This document shows positions 2,286 through 58,819 of a stretch of 64,000 bases of DNA, in pieces (positions within the stretch are counted from its first letter, which is position 1; each line of letters opens with the position of its first letter). Origin of the DNA: Roseiflexus sp. RS-1 (lineage in GTDB: Bacteria > Chloroflexota > Chloroflexia > Chloroflexales > Roseiflexaceae). Where the stretch lies: positions 4,959,501 through 5,023,500 of the forward strand of contig NC_009523.1 of the NCBI RefSeq assembly GCF_000016665.1, given 5' to 3'. The position numbers were made by a program, and so were the translations under genes. The notes beneath the pieces were generated by a model that saw only the letters and a list, made by a program, of their open reading frames with translations, did not search any database and had not been told where the DNA came from.

Positions 2286-2405
2286 GTCTTTGAGTAATTA
2301 TTCCGCTATAGCCCGCGCAGGCGGGCTTCGCCCTGGCTAGCCGAGGGCTTCAGCCCCACGGCCAGCACAGTATAGCGGATTTATTTCTCAATCTTCATCA
2401 GCCCG
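2286..2405. repeat. Dispersed repeat family R2, copy 1
   Basis: A block of about 120 bp that recurs at 18807-18927 with high identity. It begins GTCTTTGA, contains the hairpin GCCCGCGCAGGCGGGC and the motif CCGAGGGCTTCAGCCCCACG, and ends with ATTTCTCAATC-CATCAGCCCG. It is bounded by CGNTATAGC-like sequences in opposite orientation. This copy supplies the stop codon and last codons of the truncated toxin at 2381-2554. Confidence 0.75.
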
Positions 2406-16852: not shown

Positions 16853-18355
16853 TCATCTCACCTGATGCGCCGCCGTCGGCGCAAGTGACCGTTCGCGCAC
16901 CAGGAATGCCCAGCCCAGCGGTTCGAGCGCGATGCTGCCGTCGTCGTTTTGGGTGAATACTGCGCGTTCGAAAACCTGACGCATACGCCGTCGTTCACCG
17001 GCGGCGGCAAACTCGTCGCTGATCGGGAAGCCAAAGGTCTGCAATCCGCCGTTGCGTTCCCAGAAGGCGGCGAATGATCCACGGATGGCGTGGGGCGTTT
17101 CTGCGAAACGACGACATCCAGGCGGAGCGCAGTCGTCGGTTGGCGCTGCGCCGCCCGGCGGCGTCCAGGTACGTCCAAGCGGCGCCACCTGCACCAGGTA
17201 GGGCGTGTCCGCCTGATCGGGGTGGAGTTCCAGTACCGCACGCTCGAAGACCTGGCGCGTGATGCCCCCCTCGACAACCGCTGGCGCCAGCGGCGCGCCG
17301 AACAGATCGTTCCCGCCATGCATCTTCCAGTAACGCCAGAGGAGCGCCGGTACAACCACCTCGTTTTCGCGCCGGTCTTCCGGGGCTGGCAGGAGTTCCT
17401 CTGCGGCTGCCAGCACTGCCCGGATGCCTGCCAGATTTTCGTCGAACTCCGGTTCGTCGCCGGTGACCAGTTCGGGGACGATCGCGGCAATCCCCAGACT
17501 CGCCGCCCAATCGTGCATGCCGCCGGTAATGGTGTATGCGTCCCAGAAGCGCGTGTAGCGATAGCCTGCGCCGGTCGCATACGTCTGCGCCAGTTCTATC
17601 GATGGCGCGTGTTCACAGAAAGCGGGGAAAACGTTGCCAGCGGCAGAGTGCAGGAACATAGCACCCCAGGCATCGAGCAGGAAACTGCGCAGCACCCGAC
17701 TTTCGACCTCTGAGTCGGGGTATGGTCCGCCGGTGTCGGAAATGATGCCGTATGCGCCGAACACCCTGGTGCGCCAGTCATTTTCGGGGCAAACGTCAAG
17801 GTTGGTATTCATGTTGCGGTTGAGATCGATGCCGCGTGCGTTGAAGCGTGTGCCAAGCGCCAGTCCATCGGGGTTGATCGTGGGGATGATATAGAGGCGC
17901 ACGGCGGATGGAACCTCGTGCGGATTGGCGCGAAAATGGTCGGCGAGCATGGCAGCCAGGGTGTAGGTGTTGGCTTCTGGGGCGCCGTGGGTGTTGCCGA
18001 CAATCACCAGTTTCATCGGTCCGTCGCCGATGCGCAGCGCGGTGATCGGGCGCCCCTGGGTGGAGAGACCAATCGTGAGGTCCTGCACGGTCGATTGGCG
18101 TGAGGGTGCAGCATGGAGCGGCGCTGCGAGGAGTAGAAACAGGATCAGGAGGATCAGGGGTTGAAGGTTGAAGGTTATAAGGTTGAAGGTTGAAGGTGGT
18201 TTTGTATTTGCGCTTTTGCGCCTGCTACCTTCGCACTTGCCACCTTCGCACCTGCCTCCTTTCACGTTTGCATCTTGCTGCGCTGCTCGGAAGAAGCGCC
18301 TGAAACCCTGGACGCCCTGGCGCCTGCCGCCTTTCACCTTTGCACCTCGCTGCAT
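16853..18355 (-). CDS. Secreted M14-type zinc carboxypeptidase
   Basis: The mature part begins after a hydrophobic signal (LILLILFLLLAAPLHAAP). Zinc-site motifs are NTHGAPEANT (His and Glu, with one extra residue between them compared with HxxE), the conserved TINPDG and NRNMN blocks, and the third His in MFLHSAAGN. The catalytic Glu is likely in IVPELVTGDEPEF. A C-terminal domain of about 180 residues has two FGAPL/FGFPISDEF repeats resembling LGFP-like modules. The start is uncertain: upstream codons lie in GGTTGAA-type and GCAAAGGTGAAAGG-type repeats. ATG 18355 is given, but its first 70 residues (AKVKGGR-like) are repeat-derived. Confidence 0.75.
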   Translation of the reverse strand: MQRGAKVKGGRRQGVQGFRRFFRAAQQDANVKGGRCEGGKCEGSRRKSANTKPPSTFNLITFNLQPLILLILFLLLAAPLHAAPSRQSTVQDLTIGLSTQGRPITALRIGDGPMKLVIVGNTHGAPEANTYTLAAMLADHFRANPHEVPSAVRLYIIPTINPDGLALGTRFNARGIDLNRNMNTNLDVCPENDWRTRVFGAYGIISDTGGPYPDSEVESRVLRSFLLDAWGAMFLHSAAGNVFPAFCEHAPSIELAQTYATGAGYRYTRFWDAYTITGGMHDWAASLGIAAIVPELVTGDEPEFDENLAGIRAVLAAAEELLPAPEDRRENEVVVPALLWRYWKMHGGNDLFGAPLAPAVVEGGITRQVFERAVLELHPDQADTPYLVQVAPLGRTWTPPGGAAPTDDCAPPGCRRFAETPHAIRGSFAAFWERNGGLQTFGFPISDEFAAAGERRRMRQVFERAVFTQNDDGSIALEPLGWAFLVRERSLAPTAAHQVR

Positions 18356-18537: not shown

Positions 18538-18991
18538 TATAGCAGTTCTCATAGAGATTAAACCTCCTCGGACAAACGCAGTCACGCTCACGCTCCCAGT
18601 GCGGCGACCGCCTTGCGTGGCGGTCGGAAAGAAGCCATCCGCAATCGTCCGTCGTCAGGCGCGCGACTCCGCTCGTGCGGGCTCAAGCCCTCCCTGAGCG
18701 CACGGAAGCCCCTGCGGGGCTGGCGTATCCGTCACCCTTCCCTCTGCCGGGGGGCGCCGGGTTGATCCAGCCCGCAGGGCTTGCCTGACCTCAGATAGGG
18801 CTTATGGTCTTTGAACAATTACTCCGGTATAGCCCGCGCAGGCGGGCTTTGCCCTGGTTAGCCGAGGGCTTCAGCCCCACGGCTAGCGCGGTATAGCGGA
18901 ATAAATTCTCAATCTCCATCAGCCCGTCAGAGATGCATGGCGATGGAACGCTCCAGCCAGGCAAGGGTCAGCGTGTCTGAGAACTGCTATA
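18538..18991. mobile_element. MITE-like element with 14-bp inverted ends
   Basis: TATAGCAGTTCTCA at 18538-18551 is the exact reverse complement of TGAGAACTGCTATA at 18978-18991. The 19-base end also recurs at 1062-1080 (CTCTATGGGAACTGCTATA, one mismatch). The 454-bp interior has no coding capacity and includes repeat R2. Ends like this are typical of nonautonomous derivatives of IS630/IS5-type elements. The rest of 18434-19145 shows no gene. Confidence 0.5.
18807..18927. repeat. Repeat family R2, copy 2
   Basis: Near-identical to 2286-2405, including GTCTTTGA, the GCCCGCGCAGGCGGGC hairpin, the CCGAGGGCTTCAGCCCCACG motif and the CATCAGCCCG end. Here the flanks are CCGGTATAGCC and GCGGTATAGCGG, pointing in opposite directions. 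It lies inside the MITE-like element. Confidence 0.75.
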
Positions 18992-34460: not shown

Positions 34461-36408
34461 TCAGATGCAATCGACCTTTTCGCCGGATACCTCACGGATT
34501 GCGGAGAGAGCGGCGCATCGGCGCACGCCGCTCGCCGCTTTTTTGTTTCTGCTCGCGCTCTACCTGCTGACGGCGAGCGGTCATCTCTATTCGCCCGACG
34601 AAGAGGCGATGTACTATGTGACACGCGGACTGGCGACACGCGGCGACATCGCTATCGAGGGGGACGATCTCGTGCCGATGCCGTTGCGGGAAGGGCGCGA
34701 TGGACGCATGGTTTCGCCGTATGGCATCCTTCCTTCGCTGGCGGCGTTGCCATTCTTCGCCCTCGGCGCGCTGCTGGCTGGCGGTGCGTCGGTCGAGGTC
34801 TACGAGTACCTCACCCGTTTCACGGTCAGTCTGCTGAATGCACCGGTGACTGCTGCTACCGGTGCGGTTCTGTTCTCATGTGTGGTATCTCTGGGGTATG
34901 GCAGGCGGGCAGCATGGCTGGCAGCGGGTGCGTTCGGCGTGGCGAGCCTGGCGTGGCCCTATGCCCGCACCTTCTTCTCCGAGCCACTGGCGGGACTCCT
35001 GCTGATCCTGGCGGTCGAACGGGCGTACAGCGCGTCCGTGCGTCACAACCGACGAGCGCTGCTGATCTCCGGCGTTGCGACCGGTTTGCTGCTCGTCACG
35101 CGCATCGCTGCGCTGGTTGCTGTGCCGTTTTTGATGTTGTATGTGGCGGCAGCAACGGTTTCCTGCCCGGGTGCGTCGCGTGGAATGGTGGAGCGACTCC
35201 GTGTGATGGCGGCGCACCTGGGTCTGTGGAGTTTGGGGTTGGTTCCCGGTGTGGCGCTGGTTATCGGCTACAATCTGGCGCGCTTTGGTGTACCGCTGGC
35301 GAGCGGCTATGGCGATGAAGCGAGCGCTTTTACCACACCGCTGCTGACTGGATTGACCGGGTTGTTGCTCAGTCCTGGCAAAAGCCTGTTCCTGTACGCG
35401 CCGGTTGCGGCGCTGGCGCTGGCGGGCGCGCCGTTGCTGTGGCAGCGCTGGCGTCTGGAAACAGCGCTGCTGCTGCTGCTGGTCATTGTGCATGTGGTGC
35501 TGTATGCGCGCTGGCATGCCTGGGATGGCGGCGGGGTTTGGGGACCCCGATTGCTGCTGCCGATCGTGCCGTTGTTGGCGGTGCTGGCAACGCCGGTGTT
35601 CGAGCGCGCAGCCGCAGGTGGCGGCATCGGGATACGCCTTATCGTCAGCGCGATCCTGGTGTTTGGAACAATCAATGCACTGGCAGGCGTTCTCGTCAAC
35701 CCGGCGATCTACCTCAATATGGAGATTCCGCACCGCCGGATCTATTTCGAGGCGGCACACTCGCCATTGCTGGCGCACTGGCGCATTGCGGCGGAACGCT
35801 GGCAGGCGCGGTATGGCGGCGGGCAATGCGTGATCGGCGACGGGTTTTACTTCCCGGAGATGCGCGATGCGCTACTGCCGCGCATGACCGGCGCATACGG
35901 AACACTATCCTGCCGGAGCGACAGACCGACACTGCTCACACTCCGCATCAACGATGATCGTCCGACCGGCGCGCCGCCGGGTAACCCGACGCTCGACATC
36001 GCCGGTCGTCAGGTTGCGTTGCGTGATGGCCAGGGAAGCCTGTTCTATGTGCTTGCACCGCCGGGCGCACTGCTGGTACTGCGGGCGCAGCCGTTTGTGC
36101 AGACGATACCGGGAACGGAGCGGCAGCGAATGGTCGGGTTGCGGATCGATGCGATCACCGCCGTCGATGACCGTGGCATTCGATTGCCGCTCTCTGATGC
36201 AGCCATCGAACCGCCGCCGGCAAGTCCGCGCTACCGCTGGGGGTGGTATTTCGTTCCAACCGTTCGCCACACGACCGACCTGTGGATCGGGTATCTGCTG
36301 CGCAGCGAGATCGGTTTCATTCGTGCGCTGGCTGTCGCCGGGTTGCTGGTCAGTACGGCGCTGGCGGCAGGTGTGGCGGGGGGGAGGAGGTTGGGCGTTG
36401 AACGTTGA
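34444..36408 (+). CDS. Polytopic membrane protein, glycosyltransferase-like (PMT/ArnT type)
   Basis: A 654-residue protein (ATG 34444; ATG 34465 also possible) with about ten to eleven hydrophobic segments up to residue 420, then a soluble region, then one last segment near 625-650. The first extracytoplasmic loop has the acidic motif YSPDEEAMYYVTRGLA, like the Asp-Glu motif of lipid-carrier-dependent GT-C transferases. It probably transfers a sugar from a polyprenyl carrier to a protein or glycan outside the membrane. Its last codons run into GTTGAAC heptamer repeats, which encode the stop. Confidence 0.65.
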   Translation: MPVVNDQMQSTFSPDTSRIAERAAHRRTPLAAFLFLLALYLLTASGHLYSPDEEAMYYVTRGLATRGDIAIEGDDLVPMPLREGRDGRMVSPYGILPSLAALPFFALGALLAGGASVEVYEYLTRFTVSLLNAPVTAATGAVLFSCVVSLGYGRRAAWLAAGAFGVASLAWPYARTFFSEPLAGLLLILAVERAYSASVRHNRRALLISGVATGLLLVTRIAALVAVPFLMLYVAAATVSCPGASRGMVERLRVMAAHLGLWSLGLVPGVALVIGYNLARFGVPLASGYGDEASAFTTPLLTGLTGLLLSPGKSLFLYAPVAALALAGAPLLWQRWRLETALLLLLVIVHVVLYARWHAWDGGGVWGPRLLLPIVPLLAVLATPVFERAAAGGGIGIRLIVSAILVFGTINALAGVLVNPAIYLNMEIPHRRIYFEAAHSPLLAHWRIAAERWQARYGGGQCVIGDGFYFPEMRDALLPRMTGAYGTLSCRSDRPTLLTLRINDDRPTGAPPGNPTLDIAGRQVALRDGQGSLFYVLAPPGALLVLRAQPFVQTIPGTERQRMVGLRIDAITAVDDRGIRLPLSDAAIEPPPASPRYRWGWYFVPTVRHTTDLWIGYLLRSEIGFIRALAVAGLLVSTALAAGVAGGRRLGVER

Positions 36409-36507
36409 ACGTTGAACGTTGAACGTTGTAATGTTGGGCGTTGAACGTTGAACGTTGAACGTTGAACGTTGTAATGTTGGGCGTTGAACGTTGAACGTTG
36501 AACGTTG
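36396..36507. repeat. GTTGAAC heptamer repeats with a 35-bp supra-period
   Basis: Runs of GTTGAAC (about 3-4 units each) are separated by GTTGTAATGTTGGGC, giving a higher-order unit repeated three times. It starts inside the last codons of the membrane protein gene and ends 45 bp before the metzincin gene. Similar 7-bp arrays with other variants are at 18160-18200 and 57359-57490. Confidence 0.85.
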
Positions 36508-55592: not shown

Positions 55593-55871
55593 ATGCAAAA
55601 GACTGACTTCATCAAAGCGGTCGCCGAGCGGGCGAACCGGTCGCAGAAGGAAACCAAGGAGATCGTCGATGCGGCGCTGGAAGTCATCACCGAAGCGCTG
55701 AAGCGCGGCGAGAAAGTCACCCTGACCGGCTTCGGCACATTCGAAGTGCGGCAGCGTCAGGCGCGCGAAGGGGTGAACCCGCAGACCCGCTCAAAAATCC
55801 AGATCCCGGCGACCAAAACCCCTGGCTTCAGCGCCAGCAGCACGTTGAAGAACGCGGTGAAGGATAGTTGA
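55593..55871 (+). CDS. hup: DNA-binding protein HU
   Basis: A 92-residue protein starting MQKTDFIKAVAERANRSQKE, with GGAGGAAAGG upstream. It has the HU signature GFGTFEVRQRQAREGVNPQT (about 46-65) in the beta arm, with the Pro intercalation site in the loop NPQTRSKIQIPA. It bends and compacts DNA. It is a single gene with its own promoter. Confidence 0.96.
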   Translation: MQKTDFIKAVAERANRSQKETKEIVDAALEVITEALKRGEKVTLTGFGTFEVRQRQAREGVNPQTRSKIQIPATKTPGFSASSTLKNAVKDS

Positions 55872-56034: not shown

Positions 56035-57588
56035 GTGCATGCAGAACATATGATACAACATTCTTTCATCTTCGAAGACCAGGAGGATGTCGTGATCTTC
56101 CGTGATCCGGCATTCGAGCAGAACAAGCGGCATGCCATTCATCGTTGGGTTCCGTGGATTGCCGGGTTTTCCGCTGATTTCGTCGTCGATGCCTTGCGGC
56201 GCTATCTTCCGGATGGAGCCGGAAGAAACACGTGCGTCCTCGATCCATTCGCTGGAGTAGGAACAACCCTGGTCGAAAGCATCCGTCACGGACACAACGC
56301 GATTGGATTCGAGATTAACCCCTTCGCAGCGCTTGCCGCTCGCGTGAAATGCACAGCGTTTCTGCTCGATCCCGCGTCGGTACGAGCGCATATCGTGGCA
56401 TTTGAACAGCGCGCCAGGCGCATAACAGAAGCGATTGATCAAGCGTGGGCGTGCGGCGATGACCTCGCACGGCTTCTCCCTGCGCCTGCGTCCCGTCCAC
56501 CGGCCGCTTTTCGATCCCGTGTTCCCTTCTTCAGTCCGGCAGTCGAACGCAAAGTCCTGCATTGTCTCGATCTCATTCACGCCGTACCCGATCCGCAGGT
56601 GCGTGATCTGATGCTGCTTGCATTCGGTTCCATCCTGGTTCACGTATCGAACTACTCATACGAGCCGAGTCTCGGATCACGCTCTGCCGTTGGGAAAGCT
56701 GATGTCCTGAACGCAGACGTGGCCGGTCTGCTCAGCGCCCGGCTTTACGACATGGAACACGATATTATCGTCTATCGCCGCGACATGATGCAATTTCAAC
56801 CGTTTCCCGAGGGAAAGGTCATCAACGACGACTCACGACAGGTGCGTCATATACTGCCTGATTCGAGCATTGATATCGTTATCACATCACCTCCGTATCT
56901 TAATCCTCTCGAAAAAATAAATCTTGCAAAAAGCATCGTACAAGAACTTTTGTCACAGAATATCCATCCGCTACCGCCTCCTATCTTTGAAGGAGCGGGA
57001 GTATATGCCCTATACTATAGTGGAAGTCATGACTTGTATGCATCTCTGGCTCTATCTTCTGGAAAGGAAGAGAAACCCATCTATGTAGGAAAAGCCGTGC
57101 CCCCTGGCGCCAGGATCGGCGGATATGGGCTTAACACTCCACCGGGTGCTGTTCTCTTCAATCGCCTGAGAGAGCACGCTCTCTCAATTGAACAGGCGCA
57201 AGACCTCGATCTGACAGACTTCCGATGTCGATATCTGGTTGTTGATGATATCTGGATTCCGCTGGCCGAGACGTTGCTCATCGAAATGTACCAGCCGGTA
57301 TGGAATACGATTGTCCCCGGCTTCGGCAATCATGCCCCCGGAAAAGGGAGACATAAGCAACCTGCAACCTGCAACCTGCAACCTGCAACCTGCAACCTGC
57401 AACCTGTAACGTGCAACCTGCAACCTGTAACGTGCAACCTGCAACCTGCAACCTGTAACGTACAACCTCCAACCTGCAACCTGCAACCTTCCCGCTCCCT
57501 CTCCATTTCCTGCGCCACACTTGCATATCTAAACGTTATCAAGTATACTTCTCACATCCCCCTCTTAATGGTCAACAGATGGTTCTGA
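56035..57588 (+). CDS. Fusion of a DNA methyltransferase N-part with an Eco29kI-like GIY-YIG endonuclease
   Basis: A 517-residue frame (GTG 56035 or ATG 56050). Residues 60-290 are a DNA N4/N6-methyltransferase part: motif [15 protein letters not shown] (69-82) and motif [10 protein letters not shown] (284-291). The methyltransferase stops there, its remaining motifs missing. From about residue 295 ([12 protein letters not shown]) the protein matches Eco29kI-type endonucleases: [51 protein letters not shown] and [11 protein letters not shown]. The usual C-terminal end is replaced by a tail of repeated PATCNLQ from heptamer repeats. GIY-YIG residues (GVY, YVG, the Arg and Glu) are present; methylation activity is doubtful. 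Confidence 0.75.
57359..57490. repeat. CCTGCAA heptamer array
   Basis: About 18 units of 7 bp (CCTGCAA with CCTGTAA and CGTGCAA variants) in frame with the upstream nuclease, giving the peptide repeat QPATCNL. The array starts right after the Eco29kI-like GKGR motif. The same kind of 7-bp array is at 36396-36507 and 18160-18200, with related consensus (GTTG-A-G on the other strand). Confidence 0.9.
57521..57549 (+). promoter_or_regulatory. Promoter of the TRAP binding-protein gene
   Basis: TTGCAT (57521-57526) and TATACT (57544-57549) with 17 bp between, 58 bp before the start codon. It overlaps the last codons of the fusion gene. AAGGAG sits 12 nt before the ATG at 57608. Confidence 0.6.
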
Positions 57589-57607: not shown

Positions 57608-58819
57608 ATGCGACGACGAGTGTTTCTTCGCAGCGTCGCGGCGGGCAGCGCAGCCCTGACAGCAGCCACACTGGCAGCGTGTGGTCAGGCGCCGCAGACG
57701 CCAGTTCAGCAGGCGACGACCGCCCCGGCACAGCAGGCGACGACCGCCCCGGTACAGCAGGCAACGCAGGCGCCGGTCGCCACTGCGCCACAACCGCAGG
57801 CGCCAGCGCAAACGAGCGAGATGCCCTCTCTTGAGTGGGATATGGCTACCAGCTGGCCCGTGGCGCTCGACACGATTTTCGGCGGAGCGAAGACAGTTGC
57901 TGACCGTGTGGCGGCATTGACAGACGGTAAGTTTAAAATCACGCCACGCGCTGCGGGCGAACTGGCGCCTGCCTTGCAGGTGCTTGATGTGGTGCAGCAG
58001 GATGCCGTGCCGATCGGTCACACCGCATCGTACTACTATGTCGGCAAGAGTCCGGTGACCGCGTTTGGCACTACGGTGCCCTTCGGTCTCAACGCACAGC
58101 AGCAAAATGCCTGGTTGTACGACGGCGGCGGGCTGGAAAAATTGCAGGCGGTGTACGCCAAACTGTTCAATGTTATTCAGTTCCCGGCGGGCAATACCGG
58201 CGTCCAGATGGGTGGGTGGTTCCGCAAGGAGATCAACACCGTCGCCGACCTTCAGGGTCTCAAGATGCGCATCCCCGGTCTCGGCGGGCAGGTGTTGACC
58301 AAACTGGGAGTCACCGTTCAGGTCATTCCGGGTGGTGAGATCTTCCAGGCGTTGCAGACCGGCGCGGTCGACGCGGCGGAATGGGTCGGGCCGTATGACG
58401 ATGAGAAACTCGGACTGAACAAGGCGGCGAAGTTCTACTACTATCCGGGCTGGTGGGAGCCGGGTCCTACACTCGAGGTGCAGGTCAACCTCGACAGGTG
58501 GAACGAACTGCCAAAAGTCTACCAGGAGGCGATTAAGACCGCATCCGCCGAGGCGAATATCACGATGCTGGCGCGGTACGATGCGCGCAACCGTGAAGCG
58601 CTCAAGCGCCTGGTGGACGGCGGCGCGCAACTGCGCCCGTACAGCAAGGAAATCCTTGCCGCAGCCGAGAAAGCCGCCTTCGAACTGTACGATGAGTTCG
58701 CCGCGAAAGACGCCGACTTCAAGGAAATCTACGAGGAGTGGAAGGCGTTCCGCGAGGCCATCTATGAGTGGAACAAGGTGAACGAAGCCGGGTACACCAA
58801 CTACGCCTACAATAAGTGA
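57608..58819 (+). CDS. TRAP transporter solute-binding protein (DctP type)
   Basis: A 403-residue protein with a Tat-like start ([17 protein letters not shown]) and lipobox LAACG. A linker of repeated QATTAPVQQ-type sequence follows, then the DctP domain: [59 protein letters not shown] (the conserved R--G carboxylate-binding Arg) and [14 protein letters not shown]. The mannitol/oxo-acid-like subgroup is likely. No DctQ/DctM membrane genes are within the window on either side; a terminator hairpin follows directly. Confidence 0.9.

Follow-up and report, generated by a model that had tools for sequence, protein, structure and literature searches.

The fused reading frame between the HU and DctP genes

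The window analyzed here (i.e., the whole stretch of 64,000 nucleotides from the Roseiflexus sp. RS-1 genome) contains, between the genes encoding an HU-type DNA-binding protein (55593-55871, + strand) and a DctP family solute-binding protein (57608-58819, +), which represent the upstream and downstream syntenic markers, an open reading frame of 517 aa (56035-57588, +) with a GTG start and an alternative ATG at 56050. In this frame, sequence of an m4C-type DNA methyltransferase (M) is followed, on the same strand, by an Eco29kI-like GIY-YIG endonuclease (R) and a repeat-encoded tail. The N-terminal 290 residues (56035-56904, +) represent M and carry motif I and then motif IV. The SAM-binding motif I (residues 69-78; 56239-56268, +), recognized from the sequence and conserved in the M family alignment, includes FAGVG, the FxGxG of this motif, at residues 72-76. 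The catalytic motif IV, with SPPY at residues 285-288, was identified from the sequence and the alignment as TSPPYLN (residues 284-290; 56884-56904, +), which are the final M residues kept. The R sequence starts at residue 290, directly after TSPPYLN, and the R domain (56902-57360, +) lacks, at its N-terminus, only the first ~4 residues.

Pfam matches to the fused ORF were found for N6_N4_Mtase (PF01555) at residues 37-98 (E 1.1e-8) and for RE_Eco29kI (PF09517) at residues 318-442 (E 2.6e-46), and the R part matched the R.Eco29kI structures (3mx4) at E 1e-33 in a phmmer search of the PDB. The preliminary description of M motifs I and IV followed by an Eco29kI-like endonuclease in one open frame was thus confirmed by the ORF, Pfam and phmmer. 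As the RE_Eco29kI profile was matched only at positions 3-128 of 164, the C-terminus of R is missing from the fused ORF; in its place lies an in-frame heptamer array, (GCAACCT)x19 (57357-57489, +). This loss of the R tail, a second lesion of the same gene, had gone unnoticed in the earlier description.

Heptamer tandem arrays recur in this genome, with CGTTGAA (window 36390-36507), GGTTGAA (18159-18197) and GCAACCT (57357-57489) as the repeated words; the 21-base word of the GCAACCT array is found at five other places in the same genome, and the GCAACCT word is also present in congeners. An interspersed repeat (GGGCTGAAGCCCTCGGCTA...), assigned to CRISPR-DR28 by Rfam, is found in two copies in the window (2309-2356 and 18830-18877, -). 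As each copy stands alone, outside any array, this repeat is probably not CRISPR.

An intact pair in a congener and the origin of the junction

The DctP gene downstream of the ORF was found in all five congeners (G001 to G005), and both sides of the locus were readable in four of them. In G005 (Chloroflexota MAG BF4.bins.103, contig JAUQOW010000002.1), the HU and DctP genes enclose a separate intact M gene encoding 479 aa (L005 1417-2856) and a separate intact R gene encoding 204 aa (L005 2877-3491), with protein identities to the window of 66% and 70%, respectively. The preliminary description had named a sister genome with two separate intact genes, coupled with an assembly error at the junction, as evidence against the fusion; of these two, G005 provides the former, with its pair in the same HU-[RM]-DctP place. 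In the G005 pair, the word TCAAT is found in M, in the L-N codons after SPPY, and again near the start of R, in F-N codons; the two copies share their codon phase and are separated by 563 bases, and the join in the window reads TTAAT (56900-56904, +, located by comparison with G005). A deletion of ~563 bp between such short direct repeats would have joined the start of R to residue 290 of M, with loss of the stretches corresponding to residues 305-479 of M and 1-4 of R, and the shared codon phase of the repeats would explain both the fusion and the kept frame. The intact syntenic pair and the repeated junction word together lend good support to the idea, put forward in the preliminary description, that a deletion joined two genes of a restriction-modification (R-M) locus in frame. 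No further locus with the same junction was found in 400 genomes from the phylum or in 80 loci taken from genome contigs.

Further comparison of the congeners showed that the system has been lost in four of the five readable genomes of the genus (the window included), each time differently. In G004 (L025:4100-4755, G004:C5), in-frame deletions were found within both M (52 codons left) and R (161 left). In G001, the closest genome by flanking genes, an R fragment with stops is all that remains, and in G003 the HU and DctP genes are separated by ~360 bases without R-M genes. These congener MAGs may carry assembly errors, and the individual lesions in G001 to G005 are therefore less certain than the overall picture. 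By flanking-gene distances, the RS-1 genome (G000) groups with G001, and G003, G004 and G005 group together; R distances agree with this grouping. M and R diverge more than the flanking genes, with dS between the window and G005 reaching 3.4 for M and 4.2 for R (NG86) as compared to 0.7-0.8 for the flanks. A replacement of the R-M genes by horizontal transfer was rejected as the cause of this divergence, since the R distances, by which G004 and G005 are closer to each other than either is to the window, match the grouping of the flanking genes; faster synonymous change in the R-M genes, which have a lower GC3, suffices to account for the divergence. On these sequence comparisons, the simplest history would be one in which the M-R pair was inherited vertically and then lost several times.

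Cloning hosts do not always maintain R-M genes stably, and the two intact genes of the congener could also be taken to indicate that RS-1 in reality carries two intact genes, misjoined during assembly, or that its R-M DNA was rearranged in a cloning host. Such an artefact is, however, extremely unlikely, taking into consideration that the same gene carries a second, separate lesion (the heptamer array), that damage to the locus is the rule in the genus, with the system damaged or absent in three of the four other readable genomes, and that the RS-1 genome is assembled as one contig of 5,801,598 bases.

Parts kept and lost, and the age of the lesions

By alignment, the equivalents of residues 305-479 of the intact G005 M (175 of 479) are absent from the fused ORF. 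The preliminary description had put the normal extension of methyltransferases after SPPY at 50-100 residues, which is too low, as intact relatives run ~175 residues further. The near-invariant motifs that follow SPPY in the alignment (i.e., NNYHYxRNTRP, YGGxGWANY, GNSIxQG and RVGxSI) have all been lost. In an AlphaFold2 model of the intact G005 M (mean pLDDT 83.8), the main strands are formed by residues 81-84, 102-106, 274-277, 293-298, 402-413, 437-446 and 471-478; three of these seven predicted catalytic-sheet strands (402-413, 437-446 and 471-478) are lost, and the window protein can have the first four only. With these strands and the conserved C-terminal motifs gone, the M part would be unable to methylate, and methylation by the fusion is, on this model, very unlikely. 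A Foldseek search of the PDB with the G005 M model gave weak matches alone, to SAM-methyltransferases in general. A model of the fusion itself (AlphaFold2; mean pLDDT 81, pTM 0.64) was rejected as evidence of folding, since its alignment was built from the two separate parents. In alpha-class enzymes, the target-recognition domain sits between motifs I and IV. The fused ORF retains ~170 mostly helical residues between these motifs, and the order of motif I then motif IV suggests that the target-recognition region of M has been kept.

In the R part, none of the six active-site residues of Eco29kI is missing, with Y324, Y350, R377, H381, E412 and N424 corresponding to Y49, Y76, R104, H108, E142 and N154 of Eco29kI. 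The G005 R extends 44 residues past the GRHKQ position, and the window R lacks these C-terminal 44 residues and has the array instead. Hence the W-D..HPGR.WA tail of Eco29kI-like endonucleases is absent, including residues that are near-invariant in the R family alignment (W165, D166, H169, G171, R172 and A175); the HPGR.WA motif was found in 72 of 80 homologues. G001 carries R-tail sequence between an AAGCAAC word and a short heptad array ~235 bases downstream, which indicates that the tail is ancestral. Given the shared GCAAC word, a further deletion between short repeats is suggested, with growth of the array before or after it. Because the conserved tail has been lost and the host would have unprotected sites, the R part probably does not cut in the cell. 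An ancestral two-gene M-R pair would thus have undergone, by deletion, an in-frame fusion as well as replacement of the R tail by the heptamer array, and the product, if made, would be inert, as its M part would be unable to methylate and its R part would not cut.

The retained parts are nevertheless clean, given that 49 of 49 family-invariant columns in M and 32 of 32 in R are kept. Since dS is saturated between the window and G005, changes were counted in a 64-codon R segment common to the window and G001, with G005 used for polarisation. Since the split from G001, the window branch has accumulated 5 polarised changes at the nucleotide level and 0 at the amino-acid level, as compared to 21 nucleotide and 15 amino-acid changes as well as stops on the G001 branch, with 4 amino-acid sites ambiguous. 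If the changes in G001 measure neutral drift, ~15 amino-acid changes would be expected in the window segment, and the deficit stays marked even when all four ambiguous sites are counted against the window. This deficit indicates that constraint on the window lineage lasted until late in its history. Together with the clean invariant sites, it implies either that the lesions are recent or that the fusion is still under selection, and it does not fit an old neutral relic.

Ongoing selection would be expected if the product had gained a new role, as a GIY-YIG nuclease or a DNA-binding protein that uses the N-terminal/recognition region of M and has been under purifying selection after the fusion. 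The apparent retention of the recognition region, the intact catalytic residues of R and the absence of polarised amino-acid changes in the R segment would all be consistent with such a role. However, the R tail is gone, R activity without M would be directed at the host's own DNA (the window alone has 10 CCGCGG sites, if the target is the one shared by Eco29kI and DraR1), the junction was not seen in the other genomes searched and recency explains the clean sequence equally well, so that a new role appears very unlikely. Recency is preferred over ongoing selection as the cause of the clean sequence, because cleavage of the host DNA would follow if R were active in the absence of M, and because no task is evident for a product that is without the R tail and much of M. 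That the frame is open and the sequence clean would then point to a young lesion and not to a new function. Two outcomes had been offered in the preliminary description, a dead relic and a nuclease with a methyltransferase-derived recognition arm. The former is favored, since three of the seven predicted sheet strands are missing from M, the near-invariant tail of R is gone and the system is disappearing from the genus; beyond the fact that the I-IV region is kept, nothing was found to support the latter. The 10 CCGCGG sites in the window compare with 23.6 expected under a maximal-order model; this shortage was dropped as a sign of past restriction, as the palindromes GCCGGC and CCCGGG are also short.

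Comparison with known systems

The locus very likely represents a Type II R-M system of the Eco29kI/DraR1 kind that has recently become inactive and that paired an m4C-type methyltransferase with a GIY-YIG endonuclease and, by analogy, probably targeted CCGCGG. A 2024 report listed Roseiflexus sp. RS-1 as having a putative m4C R-M system with the REase and MTase in one ORF and gave the number of putative m4C systems for CCGCGG as three, RS-1 included (PMC10855626). The fused ORF was therefore already known, but the data presented here argue against reading it as a working system. What is added is that, in this natural fusion, much of each protein is missing, and that its source was a gene pair of which a congener still has an intact copy.

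A functional m4C R-M enzyme in a single chain (type IIC-like), as the 2024 DraR1 report implies by listing RS-1 as a putative fused m4C system (PMC10855626), would be in line with the conservation of both retained halves at invariant sites and with the finding that both activities are retained when full-length R and M of Eco29kI are joined by engineering as R::M (PMC3039593). The engineered fusion, however, joins two complete proteins, whereas the window ORF lacks 175 of 479 M residues as well as the R tail, and the intact relative in G005 is a two-gene pair. By alignment with intact homologues, the ORF does not contain the complete R and M in one polypeptide that characterize type IIC enzymes. 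A working enzyme is thus highly improbable, and recent inactivation of a two-gene system remains the preferred reading.

At least eight pairs of an intact-looking Eco29kI-like R with an SPPY-type (m4C-like) M were found across several phyla (L072, L074, L075, L081, L089, L046, L051 and L055), which would make such systems less rare than stated in PMC10855626 if the target is common to all. A distant paralogue of the SPPY-type methyltransferase (450 aa, 31% identity) is encoded elsewhere in the RS-1 genome (L002:1399-2751; G000:C1 2820304), and no evident nuclease gene was seen in the stretch around it. A search of the RS-1 genome, run without a positive control, gave no m5C methyltransferase like that of Eco29kI.

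Two other fusions were found at damaged Eco29kI-type loci from the same taxonomic order as the window genome. In G026 (L031:6147-7490, -, G026:C119), a 447-aa ORF is made up of the N-terminal part of an Eco29kI-like R and, in the same frame, an m5C methyltransferase, joined immediately after the PCQPFS position, in the gene order R-M, opposite to that of the window. In G257 (L066:1495-1990, -, G257:C1), an M piece (residues ~33-158) continues in frame into an R piece (residues ~157-197), and a frameshift lies close to motif I. That all five deletions noted (one in the window, two in G004 and one each in G026 and G257) are in frame may be due to chance, as few events were sampled and those that keep the frame are more readily noticed.

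Among characterized systems, DraR1 (DraI) of Deinococcus radiodurans, which targets CCGCGG, resembles the window in combining an SPPY-type m4C methyltransferase, the alpha-class M.DraR1, with an Eco29kI-like GIY-YIG R (PMC10855626), but its two genes are separate, active and ten ORFs apart, whereas the window has one fused, truncated frame. Eco29kI (PDB 3mx4/3nic; CCGC^GG) has an R that is homologous to the window R and shares the six active-site residues; its partner is, however, an m5C methyltransferase, R precedes M and the C-terminal tail that the window has lost is kept. The engineered RM.Eco29kI and type IIC enzymes share with the window the presence of endonuclease and methyltransferase in one polypeptide (PMC3039593); in RM.Eco29kI both partners are complete and in the order R-M, whereas in the window both are truncated and in the order M-R. 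The G005 pair occupies the same syntenic place as the window ORF but, unlike it, consists of two complete genes. The genus provides, at a single chromosomal site, a short natural series of stages in R-M loss that range from an intact pair to an empty site, and the window illustrates that a frame that is open and looks conserved may nevertheless be a young pseudogene, which is the most likely outcome here, rather than a new kind of system.
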